From the NCBI RefSeq assembly GCF_000235425.2, contig NZ_KI912266.1:1347823-1411822 (forward strand): 64,000 nucleotides of DNA, read 5' to 3'. The translations under genes and the position numbers were made by a program. Positions 19,486 through 42,821 of this stretch are shown piece after piece. This stretch comes from Pseudofrankia saprophytica. Lineage in GTDB: Bacteria; Actinomycetota; Actinomycetes; Frankiales; Frankiaceae. Positions within the stretch are counted from its first letter, which is position 1, and every line of letters begins with the position of its first letter. The notes under the pieces were generated by a model. That model worked only from the letters and a program-made list of their open reading frames with translations. It searched no databases and was not told the origin of the DNA.

Positions 19486-20844
19486 TCAGTTCGCCATGTC
19501 GACGAAGCGGGAGTAGTGACCCTGGAACGCGACCGTGACGGTGCCGGTCGGGCCGTTACGGTGCTTGGCGATGATCAGGTCGGCCTCGCCGGCCCGGGCG
19601 GATTCCTTTTCGACGGTGTCCTCGCGGTACAGCAGGATCACGGCGTCGGCGTCCTGCTCCAGGCTGCCGGACTCGCGAAGGTCGGAGACCTGGGGCCGCT
19701 TGTCGGCACGCTGTTCGGAGGCGCGGTTCAGCTGTGAGATCGCCACGACGGGAACCTCCAGCTCCTTGGCGAGCAGCTTCAGCGACCGGGAGATCTCGCT
19801 GACCTCCTGCTGCCGGCTCTCCACTCTCTTCGGCGAGGACATGAGCTGCAGGTAGTCGAGGATGACGAGGCGAAGGTCATGGCGCTGGCGCAGCCGGCGC
19901 GCCTTCGCCCGGATCTCCATCATCGTCAGGTGCGGGCTGTCGTCGATGAACAGCGGCGCCTCGGCGACCTCGCCCATCCGCCGCGCCAGCCGTGCCCAGT
20001 CGTCGTCGGTCAGCCGGCCGGTCCGGATGTTCTGCAGCGAGACCCGGGCCTCCGCGGACAACAGCCGCATGGTGATCTCCATGCGGCTCATCTCCAGCGA
20101 GAAGATGACGGACGTCATTCCGTGCTTGATGGAGGCCGCCCGCGCGAAGTCGAGACCCAGAGTCGACTTCCCGACCGCCGGGCGGGCGGCGACGATCCAC
20201 AGCTGTCCACCGTGGAGTCCGTTGGTCAGCTCGTCGAGGTCGGTGAAGCCGGTGGGCACGCCGGTGAGGGCGCCCTCGTGGCCGGCGATCGCCTCGATCT
20301 CCTCGAGGGCCGGGTTGAGCAGGTCACCCAGCGGCGAGTAGTCCTCGGTGGTGCGCCGCTCGGTGACCTCATAGACGGCGGCCTGGGCGCGGTCGACCAA
20401 CTCGTCGACATCGTTCGACGGGCCGTAGGCGAGCTGGACTATCTTCGTGCCGGCCTCGGCGAGGCGGCGCAGCACGGCCTTCTCCGCGACGATCCTGGCG
20501 TAGTAGCCCGCGTTCGCGGCGGTCGGCACGCTGGAGATCAACGTATGCAGGTAGCCGGGGCCGCCAACGCGATCCAGCAGGTCACGCCGGCCGAGCTCCG
20601 CGGCGACGCTGACCGTGTCGGCCGGCTCGCCGCGACCATAGAGGTCACCGATGATCTCGAACACCGTGGAGTGCGCCGGCCGGTAGAAGTCGCCCGCGCG
20701 CATCACCTCGATGACGTCGGCGATGGCGTCCTTGGACAGCATCATGCCGCCGAGCACGCTCTGCTCGGCCGGCAGGTCGTGTGGGGGTGTGCGGTCGAAC
20801 TCGACGGGCTGGCCGCCACCGCGCGCGATGTCGGTGACCGTCAC
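19486..20844 (-). CDS. dnaB: Replicative DNA helicase DnaB
   Basis: DnaB is the hexameric 5'-3' helicase of the replication fork. From the chosen start it has 452 residues: an N-terminal DnaG-binding domain beginning near DLPAEQSVLGGMML, then a RecA-like domain with Walker A ARPAVGKST and Walker B LVILDYLQLM. No intein is present. The GTG at 20844 is preferred because GGGGGGTGAGG precedes it; an upstream GTG at 20877 would add 11 residues. Two hairpins isolate it from rplI, so it has its own promoter region, which is rich in candidate control sites. Confidence 0.95.
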   Translation of the reverse strand: MTVTDIARGGGQPVEFDRTPPHDLPAEQSVLGGMMLSKDAIADVIEVMRAGDFYRPAHSTVFEIIGDLYGRGEPADTVSVAAELGRRDLLDRVGGPGYLHTLISSVPTAANAGYYARIVAEKAVLRRLAEAGTKIVQLAYGPSNDVDELVDRAQAAVYEVTERRTTEDYSPLGDLLNPALEEIEAIAGHEGALTGVPTGFTDLDELTNGLHGGQLWIVAARPAVGKSTLGLDFARAASIKHGMTSVIFSLEMSRMEITMRLLSAEARVSLQNIRTGRLTDDDWARLARRMGEVAEAPLFIDDSPHLTMMEIRAKARRLRQRHDLRLVILDYLQLMSSPKRVESRQQEVSEISRSLKLLAKELEVPVVAISQLNRASEQRADKRPQVSDLRESGSLEQDADAVILLYREDTVEKESARAGEADLIIAKHRNGPTGTVTVAFQGHYSRFVDMAN

Positions 20845-20915
20845 CCGCCTCACCCCCCGTCCACGATCTTCCAGCACGGCCCGACAACGCTACGTACCGC
20901 CCCCCGGCTGACCAG

Positions 20916-20964
20916 GCCGGTCAACCAGTGCTGGTCAACCGGGGCCGGTCAACCAGTGCTGGTC
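20916..20964. repeat. 22-bp direct repeats upstream of dnaB
   Basis: A 22-bp unit containing GGTCAACCAGTGCTGGTC occurs at 20916-20937 and again at 20943-20964 without mismatch. Each unit contains the small dyad ACCAG-TG-CTGGT. The 27-bp spacing and position, 70-120 bases before dnaB, suggest an operator. Confidence 0.6.
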
Positions 20965-20985
20965 GACCCAGGCCAGTACCGTGCA

Positions 20986-21001
20986 TCGAACAAATGTTCG
21001 A
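20986..21001. promoter_or_regulatory. LexA/SOS box upstream of dnaB
   Basis: TCGAACAAATGTTCGA fits the actinobacterial SOS box TCGAAC-N4-GTTCGA in every fixed position, and the dyad extends to CATCGAACA-AA-TGTTCGATG (20984-21003). It lies 141 bases upstream of the dnaB start used here. LexA control of dnaB is inferred. Confidence 0.7.
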
Positions 21002-21158
21002 TGAGGCGGCCGGCCTGTGTCAAGCAGGAGCGCTGGGACGGCCGCGCGCGCCGGATGGGGACGAACGTGCGTGCGCCTCCCCGCGCGTCGCCCTCGGAGC
21101 CCCGCGGCGATCCCTGAGTGGCCGACTTTAGGGAACACAGCCCCCGACCAGCAAAAAG

Positions 21159-21388
21159 TTATCCACAGGCATGTGTGGAAAACCTGTGGGCAACGCCGGT
21201 ACGACCTGGGGAGGACCTCGGGACGACGGCCGATGAGCTGTGGACAGACTAGCGGCTTACCGGCCAGGATCGGCTGTCAGGCTGGGCATTCTCCCCGGCG
21301 CCCTGTGGACACAAAAAAAGTTCACCAAAGTCTCCGAACGGGGCCCCTGCAGGGAGAGCGTCGCCTTACGAGGGCCACTTGTGGACCA
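21159..21388. promoter_or_regulatory. Cluster of six DnaA-box-like sites upstream of dnaB
   Basis: TTATCCACA lies at 21159-21167 on the plus strand. On the other strand are TTTTCCACA (21174-21182), TTGCCCACA (21185-21193), CTGTCCACA (21241-21249), GTGTCCACA (21304-21312) and TGGTCCACA (21380-21388). The first is a perfect classical DnaA box, and the CTGTCCACA and GTGTCCACA sites differ by one base from the actinobacterial consensus TTGTCCACA. The density is well above what a GC-rich background would give. Confidence 0.65.
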
Positions 21389-21445
21389 CGCGACGTGCCG
21401 ACGCCGACATTCGATGACACGGACAGGCCGGTCCGGAGACGACGA

Positions 21446-21481
21446 TGCCCGGTGCCCCGGACGTTTCCGGGACACCGGGCA
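21446..21481 (-). terminator. Second terminator hairpin after rplI
   Basis: A 16-bp stem with one mismatch (TGCCCGGTGCCCCGGA against its partner) closes the loop CGTT. It lies next to the hairpin at 21491-21522. Confidence 0.7.
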
Positions 21482-21490
21482 GGTGTCGTG

Positions 21491-21522
21491 CGGGGGCTCG
21501 GCGCCTGGGCGCCGAGCCCCCG
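21491..21522 (-). terminator. Terminator hairpin after rplI
   Basis: A perfect 15-bp stem (CGGGGGCTCGGCGCC and its complement) with a two-base loop begins 18 bases after the rplI stop. It ends the rpsF-ssb-rpsR-rplI transcript before dnaB. Confidence 0.85.
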
Positions 21523-21540
21523 CGTGACCGCTTCCGCGCG

Positions 21541-21987
21541 TCAGGCCGCGGCGACCTTGACGGTCAGCTGGGCGGTCACCTCGGGGTGCAGGTGCACCGC
21601 GACGGTGTGCTGACCGACGGCCTTGATCGGCGAGGTCAGCTGGACCTTCCGCCTGTCCAGCGCCGGGCCGCCCGCCTTCGCCACGGCCTCCGTGACGTCG
21701 CCGGCGGTGATCGAGCCGAAGAGCCGGCCTTCCTTGCCCGCCCGGCTGGTCAGCGTCACGGACAGCGCCTTGAGCTGCGCGGCGATCTCCTGCGCGTGCC
21801 CCAGGTCACGGACCTCGCGGGCCGATCGGGCCCGCTTGATCTGCTCGACCTGGCGCTCGATGCCGCGGGTCGCGATGATCGCAAACTGCTTGGGAACCAG
21901 GTAGTTACGGCCGTAGCCGTCGGCCACCTCGACGATATCGCCGGGGCTGCCGAGACCTGGCACCTCCTGGGTGAGAACGAGCTTCAT
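21541..21987 (-). CDS. rplI: Large-subunit ribosomal protein bL9
   Basis: bL9 binds 23S rRNA at the base of the L1 stalk. The 148-residue sequence has the N-terminal domain MKLVLTQEVPGLGSPGDIVEVADGYGRNYLVPKQFA split as expected by the connecting helix (VEQIKRARSAREV) from the C-terminal domain. Length and start are typical. It is the last gene of the rpsF-ssb-rpsR-rplI operon, 15 bases after rpsR, and is followed by two hairpins. Confidence 0.97.
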   Translation of the reverse strand: MKLVLTQEVPGLGSPGDIVEVADGYGRNYLVPKQFAIIATRGIERQVEQIKRARSAREVRDLGHAQEIAAQLKALSVTLTSRAGKEGRLFGSITAGDVTEAVAKAGGPALDRRKVQLTSPIKAVGQHTVAVHLHPEVTAQLTVKVAAA

Positions 21988-39711: not shown

Positions 39712-40182
39712 ATGCCGGCGCCGTCCTCCTCCCGTGGCCGTCGCCGGCTGCGCCGGACGGAGGAGACGTCGGCCGGTGGTCTCGTGCTGGACGGCCGCTC
39801 CAGCCACGCGAACGCGGCTCTGATCGCCCGGCGGGATCGACGCGGCCGGCTGCTTTGGTCCCTGCCGAAGGGCCACGTCGAGGGCGGCGAGACCAACGAG
39901 GAGGCCGCGGTCCGTGAAGTCGCCGAGGAGACCGGCGTGACAGGGCAGATCGTGGCGCCGCTGGGCACCATCGACTTCTGGTTCGTCGCGGGCCGCTCGC
40001 GCGTGCACAAGACCGTGCACCACTACCTGCTGCTGCGCACCGCCGGCGAGCTGTCCGACGCGGACGTCGAGGTCAGCGCCGTCGCCTGGGTACCGCTCGA
40101 CCAGGTGGCCGGCCGGCTCGCCTACGCCGACGAACGGCGGCTCCTGCAGGACGTTCCCGCGCTCCTGGCGGCCAGCGCGTGA
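39712..40182 (+). CDS. NUDIX hydrolase (MutT4-like position)
   Basis: The 156-residue protein contains a complete NUDIX box, G-x5-E-x7-REVAEETGV ([17 protein letters not shown]), for Mg-dependent hydrolysis of nucleoside-diphosphate derivatives. The substrate is not known. It holds the place of mutT4 between the CCA enzyme and the DUF6049 gene in Mycobacterium. The ATG at 39712 appears leaderless. Its stop overlaps the downstream GTG start (GTGA). Confidence 0.9.
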
Positions 40183-42821
40183 CCCACTCCGGCCCCCGGC
40201 AGCGGGTGGGCAGGCGGCCCGCGTACCTGGCGGCGGCGGTGGCGCTGGTGGCGACGCTGACCGGACTGCCGGCGGCGCCGTCAGCTGCTTCATCCACAGC
40301 ATCCACAGGGTTGTCCACAGCCTCATCCACAGGCAGGACGGCGACGCCTTCCGCCGGCGCCTCGAGCGCTTCTGCCAGCTCGGGGACGGGCGCCGGGACG
40401 GGCGCGGCCGCGGCGGTAACGAAGACCAGCGTCGTCCTGGACAGCTACGTCCCGATCGCTTCTCCGGGGGTCCCGCTCTCGCTGAGCGGACACGTGGACC
40501 TGGCGCCCTCGGACTCGGGGCAGGATCTCGTGGTCGAGGTGGCGGTGATGAACGGTGGTGTCAGTGGCGTTGGCGGCCGCGCCAAGCTCGAAGAGGTGCG
40601 TGACAAGCCGACGAGCGTCACCTACCGCGCCCCGCTGAGCGAGGTGCCCCTCACGCCCGACCACACGTTCACGCTCGATGCCCAACTGGATCAGAAGGTG
40701 AGCAAGACCCAGCTGACGATCTATCCGATGCGGGTCTCGGTCATGAGGTCGGGAACCCTGATCGCCGCCGCCTACACGTTCCTCGTCTGGGCACCGCCGC
40801 AGCCGTCCGTGAAGCCGACCGCGATCTCGACCGTGCTGCCCATCTCGGCCCCCCCGAGACTGCGTTCGGACGGGATGCTGACCGACAACGGGCTGGCCGA
40901 GGACATCAAGCCGGCTGGCCGGCTGGCCAGGCTGCTGGAGGCGCTCGCCCCGACCAGCGGGCAGCGGTCCACGGTCGCGCTCGCCCTCGACCCGACGCTG
41001 TTGAAGACCCTGCAGGTGATGGCCGGCAGGGACACGTACGACGACATCGCGGCCGTGTGCACGACGGTCCGCGCGCCCTGCTATCGCTACGCGAGCCCGG
41101 GCGGCGTGCGGGAACAGCCTCCGAGCGCGGACGCGGCCACCTTCCTGGACCACCTGGGCGCGTTCGCTAGGACCCCTGGCAACACCGTGTTCGCGCTGCC
41201 CTGGGGCGACGTCGACCTCGCCGCGCTCGTCCACGCGGGCAAGCTCTACGACGCCAACTGGGCGGTGAACACGGGTCGCACGGTCGTCGCCGACGTGCTC
41301 GGCCCCGACGTCTCAGCCAACGTGAAGGTCGCCTACCCCGTGGACGGACTGGCCGACGACGCGACGCTGGCGTTCCTCGCCGATCAGACCGTCGGGATGT
41401 CGACCGTCATCCTGGACGACCGGCTGATCCCGGCGACCAGCAAGAACGTGACCCCCACCGCGCTCACCAGCCAGAAGACCTCGGCGGGCCCGATCCACGC
41501 GCTCGCCGCCGACTCGAAGCTGACCGAGCTGGTCACGACGCCAGCAGCCGAGTCGAACGAGCCGAAGGCCCTGGGCGACGTGCTCGCCGAGCTGGCCATG
41601 ATCACCCTTGAGCGAGCGAGCCAGAGCCGTCTCACCGTGCTGGCGCTCCCCCGCGACTGGAACCCGTCGGCCGAGGTGGCCCGGCAGGTGCTGCAGGCCC
41701 TCGGCGCGCAGGCGAACCCCGGCTACCAGCCCTTCTACCAGCCGACGGTGCTGCCCACCGACCCCGTGGGCACGGCGGAGGCAGCGGGCCGGGTTGGAGG
41801 TTCGACCGGGGGTACCGCACCGTCCGCCACCACGACGACCGCGGGTACCACCCGCCGCGAGCCGACCTACCCGCAGTGGGCGGCCGACCGGGAGATCCCG
41901 ACCTCCTATGTCGAGGCGGTCGAGCACCTGCGCGACGAGGCGGCGCTGCTCGACCCGGTCCTGTGCACGCGAGTCGTCTCCGAGGCCAACCCGGTGGTGA
42001 CGACCAACCCCCCGAACTGCAAGCTGCGCGAGACCGTCGTCAAGCCCATGAAGGACACGCTGCTGACCGCGCTGTCGGTGAGCTGGCGCGCCGACCGCCC
42101 CGGTGCCGTGCGACTGAGCCAGGAGGTCGACGGCCGGACCAACCTGATCCGTTCGGGCATCCAGGTCGTCGCCTCGGCCAAGGTCACCCTGACCAGCCGC
42201 GAGGGCACGGTGCCACTGACCGTGAACAACCTCAGCGACACCCATGAGGGCAACGCGTACCCGATGACGGTCATGGTGTCCCTGTCGGCCAACGACAAGA
42301 CCAGGCTGCGCTCGGCGTCCAGGATTCCCGTCACCGTCCAGCCGGGTGGCGTCAAGCAGGTACTGATCTCTGTCAGCTCCGACGCGGCGGGGTCGTTCCC
42401 CGTCTTCGTCCAGGTGCTGACGCCGGATGGCCAACAACGGCTGACGACCCAGCCGGCGCGGATCCTGGTGCGCTCCACCGCCTACGGCACGATCGCCACC
42501 GCGATCACCTACGCCGCCGTCGGGCTGTTCGCCGCCGCGGTCCTGCTGCGCCTGGTCCGCCGGCGCCGCCGGCGCTCAGGCGTAGGTCGCCACGACGGCG
42601 GCGGCTCCAACGGGCCGCCGAGCGGTGGGCCGCCCATCGACGAGCCCCCGGCAGTGGCCGACGTCACCGGAACCGGGCCGCATCCGACGTGGGCCACGGA
42701 GGCCACTGACCAGGCGACAACACCCGTGCGCCGGATCCAGGCGAACGCGGCAGGAACACAACGGACCGAGTCCCAACGCGCCTACGCTGGCGGGGTGCCA
42801 GCCAACCCGAGCGAGCCGTGA
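40179..42821 (+). CDS. DUF6049-family membrane protein upstream of murJ
   Basis: The 880-residue protein has an N-terminal signal sequence (hydrophobic about 14-32), a Ser/Thr/Ala-rich linker, a large extracytoplasmic region and one C-terminal span (about 765-787) with a basic cytoplasmic tail. It takes the place of Rv3909, between the NUDIX gene and murJ, and is presumed to act with MurJ in envelope assembly; no catalytic motif is seen. It is coupled to both neighbours by GTGA overlaps. Codons 38-52 contain an array of DnaA-box sequences with four rare ACA threonine codons. Confidence 0.88.
40290..40331 (+). promoter_or_regulatory. Four-box DnaA-site array inside the DUF6049 gene
   Basis: TCATCCACA (40290-40298), GCATCCACA (40299-40307), TTGTCCACA (40311-40319) and TCATCCACA (40323-40331) lie in the same orientation, with starts 9, 12 and 12 bases apart. 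The third is a perfect actinobacterial DnaA box. The coding frame there uses ACA for all four Thr and TCA twice, although ACC, ACG and TCG/TCC dominate elsewhere. Confidence 0.6.

Follow-up and report, generated by a model that had tools for sequence, protein, structure and literature searches.

To our knowledge, the matching of helicase supply to initiation has been little studied outside a few models. In Streptomyces, Smulczyk-Krawczyszyn et al. reportedly described in 2006 DnaA-box clusters near oriC, one of which titrates DnaA. The closest described systems are mycobacterial: in M. tuberculosis DnaA was found in vitro on five regions, including one upstream of dnaB, and in M. smegmatis the five homologous regions are bound in vivo (PMC7738170). 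In the excerpts available of that paper, a DnaA mutant with less binding upstream of dnaB shows lower dnaB expression, and Caulobacter crescentus is cited as a further bacterium in which DnaA binds there. In E. coli the datA locus, >450 kb away from oriC, stimulates the hydrolysis of DnaA-ATP (PMC4451416, as excerpted). Expression of dnaB has also been connected with DNA damage. An excerpt of PMC8151990 counts dnaB among the genes with an annotated or putative SOS box and describes M. tuberculosis dnaB as overexpressed under mitomycin C in a recA-lacking strain with pafBC silenced, the response being partly PafBC-dependent; because it is seen without recA and depends partly on PafBC, the mycobacterial damage response of dnaB is not plain SOS.

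We analysed a 64,000-nucleotide stretch of the Pseudofrankia saprophytica chromosome (the window, by which we mean the whole of this stretch), in which DnaA boxes are crowded into the DNA between rplI and dnaB. The genes and boxes, in window coordinates, are as follows.

19486-20877, minus strand: dnaB, replicative helicase (463 aa), an ORF recognised by eye
21159-21167, plus strand: DnaA box TTATCCACA, exact, the convergent box adjoining the promoter-like sequence P1; TGTGGAYAA in 24/24 loci (L001-L024)
21174-21182, minus strand: DnaA box TTTTCCACA, one mismatch
21185-21193, minus strand: DnaA box TTGCCCACA, one mismatch
21207-21215, minus strand: degenerate DnaA-box-like 9-mer TCCTCCCCA, in register, with a TCCCCA core
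21218-21226, minus strand: degenerate DnaA-box-like 9-mer TCGTCCCGA, in register, with a TCCCGA-like core (TCCYRA)
21239-21247, minus strand: DnaA box CTGTCCACA, one mismatch
21304-21312, minus strand: DnaA box GTGTCCACA, one mismatch
21380-21388, minus strand: DnaA-box-like TGGTCCACA, the outermost, one mismatch
21541-21987, minus strand: rplI, the upstream neighbour of dnaB, an ORF recognised by eye

All six DnaA-box-like 9-mers reported for this region in the initial annotation were recovered between 21159 and 21388, one exact on the plus strand and five with one mismatch on the minus strand, which is that of dnaB; its two one-off matches to TTGTCCACA are CTGTCCACA and GTGTCCACA. Its distance from oriC, 41 kb, also holds (~40.6 kb to the dnaA start and ~42 kb to the dnaA-dnaN gap that holds oriC). 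It had placed the cluster between the rplI terminators and dnaB; the cluster does lie between the two genes, and what it calls terminators are GC-rich inverted repeats visible by eye at ~21448-21523, which a terminator scan did not call. The degenerate 9-mers TCCTCCCCA and TCGTCCCGA were absent from its list, and its reading missed the phasing of the boxes, the two promoter-like sequences (P1 and P2) and the SOS palindrome.

The six-box cluster is real and far above chance. At genome density 0.021 sites are expected per 230 bp, and the probability of six or more is ~1e-13. Sites with <=1 mismatch number 909 in the whole genome against 893 for the reversed pattern, so that there is no overall excess; exact sites number 34 against 26. 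Boxes above chance upstream of a gene are what a DnaA-regulated promoter should have, and a box cluster outside oriC is what a titration locus should have; both are found at dnaB.

Dense DnaA boxes would likewise befit an auxiliary or relic replication origin, and GC content does fall to its minimum, 0.59, at 21150-21249, compared with 0.61-0.80 in the other 100-bp windows of 20800-21600. The trio-like reading of CTACTACTA used here draws on the idea of the DnaA-trio. Against an origin, the window holds no such CTACTACTA run and no AT-rich stretch, whereas the dnaA-dnaN gap does carry a trio-like run and then AT-rich DNA. Beside the boxes themselves neither a trio-like run nor an AT-rich unwinding element was found (GC >=0.59 in 100-bp windows). 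We set aside a second origin, to which we give next to no chance, on the lack of both features. In the dnaA-dnaN gap, past the window end (L101:988-1018), the trio-like run CTACTACTA follows TTATCCCCA.

We then compared the cluster among relatives. We searched for DnaB in 58 genomes, of which 35 belong to the family of the window (f1), and took the DNA around 25 of the f1 matches (L001-L025); rplI has a match upstream of dnaB in 27 of the 30 loci L001-L030. Of the 25 family loci, 24 (L001-L024) have the convergent box, and L025, whose DnaB is 75% identical, lacks both the array and the palindrome. Within the 24 loci, a box lies 14-15 bp before the convergent box in 23, the exception being L023, and a box with <=1 mismatch lies 11-13 bp further in 17; L002 has N at this place, and L008-L012 and L023 are without it. 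Beyond these, a box with <=2 mismatches stands 64-66 bp from the position of the box at 21182 in 24/24 loci, and beyond it comes one more (<=2 mismatches), at a distance of 65-67 bp in 19 loci and of 75 bp in the remaining five. The degenerate 9-mers are kept as well, the TCCCCA core of TCCTCCCCA in 24/24 loci and the TCCYRA core of TCGTCCCGA in 21/24, each at an offset equal within 2 bp. Loss in close relatives was seen only for the outermost box, at 21380-21388, which is missing from L002 and L003, the two nearest by DnaB, and may be a chance occurrence.

A DnaB relative is present in 294 of the 295 class genomes searched. Among the class matches listed, we chose 60 loci from 21 families other than f1, placed the dnaB start codons by alignment to the DnaB of the window and cut the DNA to 400 bp upstream of dnaB. 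The resulting 24 kb contain 197 boxes (<=1 mismatch) and the remaining 195 kb of the 60 loci, mostly coding, contain 48; loci of one family are not independent. Thirty shuffles of the upstream DNA gave a mean of 6.1 boxes (sd 2.1, largest 10), and the reversed pattern gave 16. At least one box was found in 59/60 loci and at least three in 37/60, with 155 boxes oriented along dnaB and 42 against it. Further, 75 of 80 named loci, mostly from Streptomyces and overlapping partly with the 60-locus sample, have at least two boxes within 420 bp. No box with <=1 mismatch was found at L088, L027, L193 and L202, of which L193 covers only ~270 bp upstream and L027 and L202 appear to be one contig. An array extending beyond the class was considered and rejected. 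In the other classes of the phylum, 20 loci gave 18 boxes in 8.0 kb, compared with 3 for the reversed pattern; the excess is weaker there, ten loci have no box, five have two or more, and there is no general array.

Gene order around dnaB varies across the class. Among the 60 loci, 26 have rplI at 1.6-3.6 kb from dnaB and 14 have it within 0.8 kb, and in 20 it was not found within the stretch covered. The boxes remain at dnaB where rplI is 1.6-3.6 kb off or not found; kept even without an adjacent rplI, the array therefore follows dnaB. This bears on the titration alternative already raised in the initial annotation, which we take as a datA- or DBS-like titration or inactivation locus, in which the array would absorb DnaA near oriC and delay initiation, its position at dnaB being incidental. 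Such a locus would have no need to track dnaB through changes of gene order.

The boxes are also ordered relative to one another. We collected the distances of 9-140 bp between same-strand boxes and let every value count once per family. The 127 values in 19 groups fit a 10.8 bp period (nR2 62), a fit that none of 2000 uniform draws reached; this null supposes that spacings are uniform, and the genome of L026/L039 is counted twice. With same-strand spacings at this period, the boxes therefore face one side of the helix.

At its dnaB-proximal end the array meets a promoter-like sequence, P1.

21149-21154, minus strand: P1 -35-like TTGCTG, 4 nt past the convergent box
21125-21130, minus strand: P1 -10-like TAAAGT, starting 37 nt from the box start

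The layout box-N4-TTG-N21-TAnnGT follows the convergent box in 23/24 family loci, and Streptomyces loci have an equal layout with the -10 likewise starting at 37 nt. We scored such docking by two automatic rules, whose counts exclude by-eye readings in missed families. The stricter rule, which required TTG and TAnnKT at 16-18 bp and took offsets of 37-38 for convergent and 39-40 for direct boxes as docked, found a docked box in 44/89 loci from seven families, including 8/8 in family f18, presumably that of Streptomyces, and left the docked promoter unrecognised in 45/89, among them all nine loci of f17. Docked offsets drew 45 matches, whereas the remaining strand-offset bins averaged 1.0; the bins at 51-52, 62-63 and 72, also full, correspond to the boxes that come next in the array. 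When the -10 only was required, 34/60 class loci from 11/21 families had a docked box and 26/60 had no recognised docked promoter. Under this rule the peak for direct boxes is highest at 51 (25 loci), the docked offsets 39-40 hold 10 and 7, and we take the peaks at 51 and 62 to be the boxes that come next in the array. A standard promoter scan called no promoter in the region, P1 included. Wherever a promoter was recognised, the proximal box lies just upstream of the -35-like element, and this position relative to promoter elements is conserved in the family (23/24) and in the class (34/60), as expected of a promoter-bound regulator. A titration locus would not need a fixed distance to a promoter-like sequence.

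The convergent pair itself might instead be the intrinsic terminator of the rplI operon, a hairpin with a T-run in which the boxes are incidental, and TCCACA-CATGCC-TGTGGA-TAACTTTTTG did score as terminator-like, with 1 found against 0.5 expected in shuffles. The stem, however, is only 6 bp, the Streptomyces loci shown have the convergent box without a T-run after it, and the phased boxes upstream are left unexplained. We rejected this reading as very unlikely.

If the array acts on P1, the sign of its action has to be considered. DnaA autorepression is a known mode of regulation, and boxes lie <100 bp from the start codon in several families, so DnaA might repress dnaB from the array in a negative feedback. 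The proximal box, however, is upstream of the -35-like element, where sites are more usual for activators. The mycobacterial mutant with reduced binding, moreover, under-expresses dnaB in the account excerpted from PMC7738170. We regard repression as improbable and activation as the most likely direction of regulation, a judgement that hinges on a single mutant from another genus.

A second promoter-like sequence, P2, stands between P1 and dnaB and is overlain by a palindrome.

21018-21023, minus strand: P2 -35-like TTGACA
20994-20999, minus strand: P2 -10 candidate GAACAT, overlapping the palindrome, our direct reading of the letters
20986-21001, without strand: LexA/SOS-type palindrome TCGAACATTTGTTCGA, over P2 and between P1 and dnaB

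Among the matches listed for the 9.98 Mb genome, TCGAACATTTGTTCGA is one of six exact copies, and sites with one mismatch number 78 against 23 in the control. Two of the five other exact copies listed are inside ORFs (L031, L033), and a motif match alone therefore proves little. The GAACn4GTTC core recurs upstream of dnaB in 24/24 loci L001-L024 (24/25 family loci with L025), and TTGAC stands upstream of the palindrome in 23/24. The same core is found upstream of recA in 22/22 family loci and upstream of lexA in 10/11 family loci outside the genus of the window; within 400 bp upstream of lexA in that genus it was found in 0/7 (L107, L269, L273, L274, L275, L280, L282). Genes that we recognised by eye as ku and ligD have a one-mismatch copy of the palindrome next to them. 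The dnaB region thus carries an operator matching the LexA motif of these genomes, as a member of the LexA regulon should. Outside the family, the palindrome is exact in 4/60 class loci (0.07 expected) and has <=1 mismatch in 13/60 (1.1 expected). Its distance from the array varies from 81 to 321 bp, whereas that from the array to P1 is fixed.

DnaA boxes also occur beside other genes. Downstream of the SOS box in the recA promoter (L126-L147; G000:C2:49685-49711), 22/22 family loci have one DnaA box or more and 15/22 have two that are 18 bp apart; outside the family a box is found in 5/8 loci. With DnaA boxes downstream of the SOS box of the family recA, initiator and damage control may therefore be coupled at genes besides dnaB. 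An exact DnaA box upstream of lexA (C2:35339) was discarded as part of the system, being present in only 3/30 lexA loci (this genome, L280 and L282); one-mismatch boxes lie upstream of lexA in five more (L261, L262, L263, L265, L275).

A genome scan for similar clusters gave a mixed answer. Close pairs exceed the control, which tells against the singularity of the cluster: same-strand pairs of TCCACA cores within 30 bp number 62 against 20 (28 of them from one tandem repeat), and convergent pairs number 10 against 4. Many of the close pairs are isolated; single core pairs occur at oriC, in the rpmH-dnaA gap and upstream of recA. The tandem repeat has a 27 bp unit containing TCCACA in ~29 copies (G000:C2:1710155-1710916). 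In favour of the cluster, places with multiple boxes are few, several of them near oriC. The multi-core places, besides the tandem repeat and the coding array given below, are these.

C1:1031875-1032010: multi-core place
C1:1299660-1299739: multi-core place
C1:1534295-1534324: multi-core place
C1:2235414-2235452: multi-core place

There being several, the dnaB cluster is one of a handful and not unique. Another array lies in coding DNA of the window.

40290-40331, in frame within ORF 40179-42821: coding DnaA-box array TCATCCACA, GCATCCACA, TTGTCCACA, TCATCCACA

The protein is weakly conserved, and the array falls close to its N-terminus. In 10/10 family loci three box positions, separated by 21 and 12 bp, are retained, the third box being weak in one locus; these are this genome and nine relatives, 10 of 16 loci, the others being short of the N-terminus or outside the family. 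Thr codons are ACA in 38/40 cases inside the array and in 53/744 outside, a test that is independent only for the other nine since the stretch was picked by motif in this genome. The pattern looks like selection at the DNA level inside a gene.

The coding array also lends something to titration, as a conserved array inside coding sequence, where promoter control is less likely. Further, 10 of the 34 exact TTRTCCACA sites fall within G000:C1:1.03-1.67 Mb, the 0.64 Mb around oriC (binomial P 4e-5, for an interval chosen post hoc), and a DnaA-titrating cluster near oriC is reported from Streptomyces. The titration alternative keeps its premise, a cluster outside oriC, but does not predict docking on a promoter, and as the main role of the cluster we find it rather unlikely. 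The cluster has the look of a promoter module more than of a loose sink, and it may titrate DnaA in addition.

We conclude that the cluster is probably a DnaA-responsive control region of dnaB, most likely an activating one, with P2 under a LexA-type palindrome in the family. DnaA would bind a helically phased row of boxes ending in the convergent box upstream of the P1 -35-like element, and would most likely activate dnaB transcription there, so that helicase supply would follow DnaA activity. In the family, P2, ~130 bp downstream and under the LexA-type palindrome, may open upon DNA damage. The use of P1 and P2, activation by DnaA rather than repression, and binding by LexA are what we infer from the sequence. 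The suggestion of the initial annotation that DnaA couples dnaB supply to initiation gains from the array staying with dnaB, from its fixed distance, in many loci, to a promoter-like sequence and from DnaA binding in mycobacteria (PMC7738170, as excerpted).

More speculatively, the arrangement could be an ancestral initiator-to-helicase circuit of the class Actinomycetes, with a phased array docked on the P1 -35 and, in several lineages, a LexA-controlled P2 that adds helicase under damage; we put this forward as a possibility on which we would not rely. Present with dnaB in most sampled loci and docked in many, the array would amount to a simple circuit for a whole bacterial class. The SOS palindrome at dnaB suggests a tie between damage and helicase supply, and DnaA-box clusters near oriC should be checked for promoters before they are named titration sites.

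The clusters reported from Streptomyces in 2006 are also near oriC and in a mycelial actinomycete. In a literature search that covered few subscription papers, DnaA upstream of dnaB led to PMC7738170 only, the phased array, the docked box and the paired elements were not described, and nothing was found on a LexA/SOS box at an actinobacterial dnaB or on DnaA boxes at a recA promoter. That DnaA binds at dnaB was known before; what is new is the geometry shared across the class and the pairing with an SOS palindrome. The mycobacterial dnaB region, at which DnaA is bound both in vitro and in vivo, resembles the one described here in its DnaA sites in front of the gene, but the excerpts of PMC7738170 describe no phasing, promoter-docked box or LexA site there; here the boxes are phased, one is docked on a promoter-like sequence, and a LexA-type palindrome is present. 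The SOS box of M. tuberculosis dnaB is annotated or putative in the excerpt of PMC8151990, whereas the palindrome here is perfect and kept in 24/25 family loci. Caulobacter crescentus likewise has the initiator at the helicase promoter, in a different phylum, a likeness taken from the citation in PMC7738170. Finally, datA of E. coli and the clusters of B. subtilis are box clusters outside oriC, as here (PMC4451416, as excerpted); datA differs in its greater distance from oriC, the dnaB cluster lying ~42 kb off, and in its effect on DnaA-ATP.
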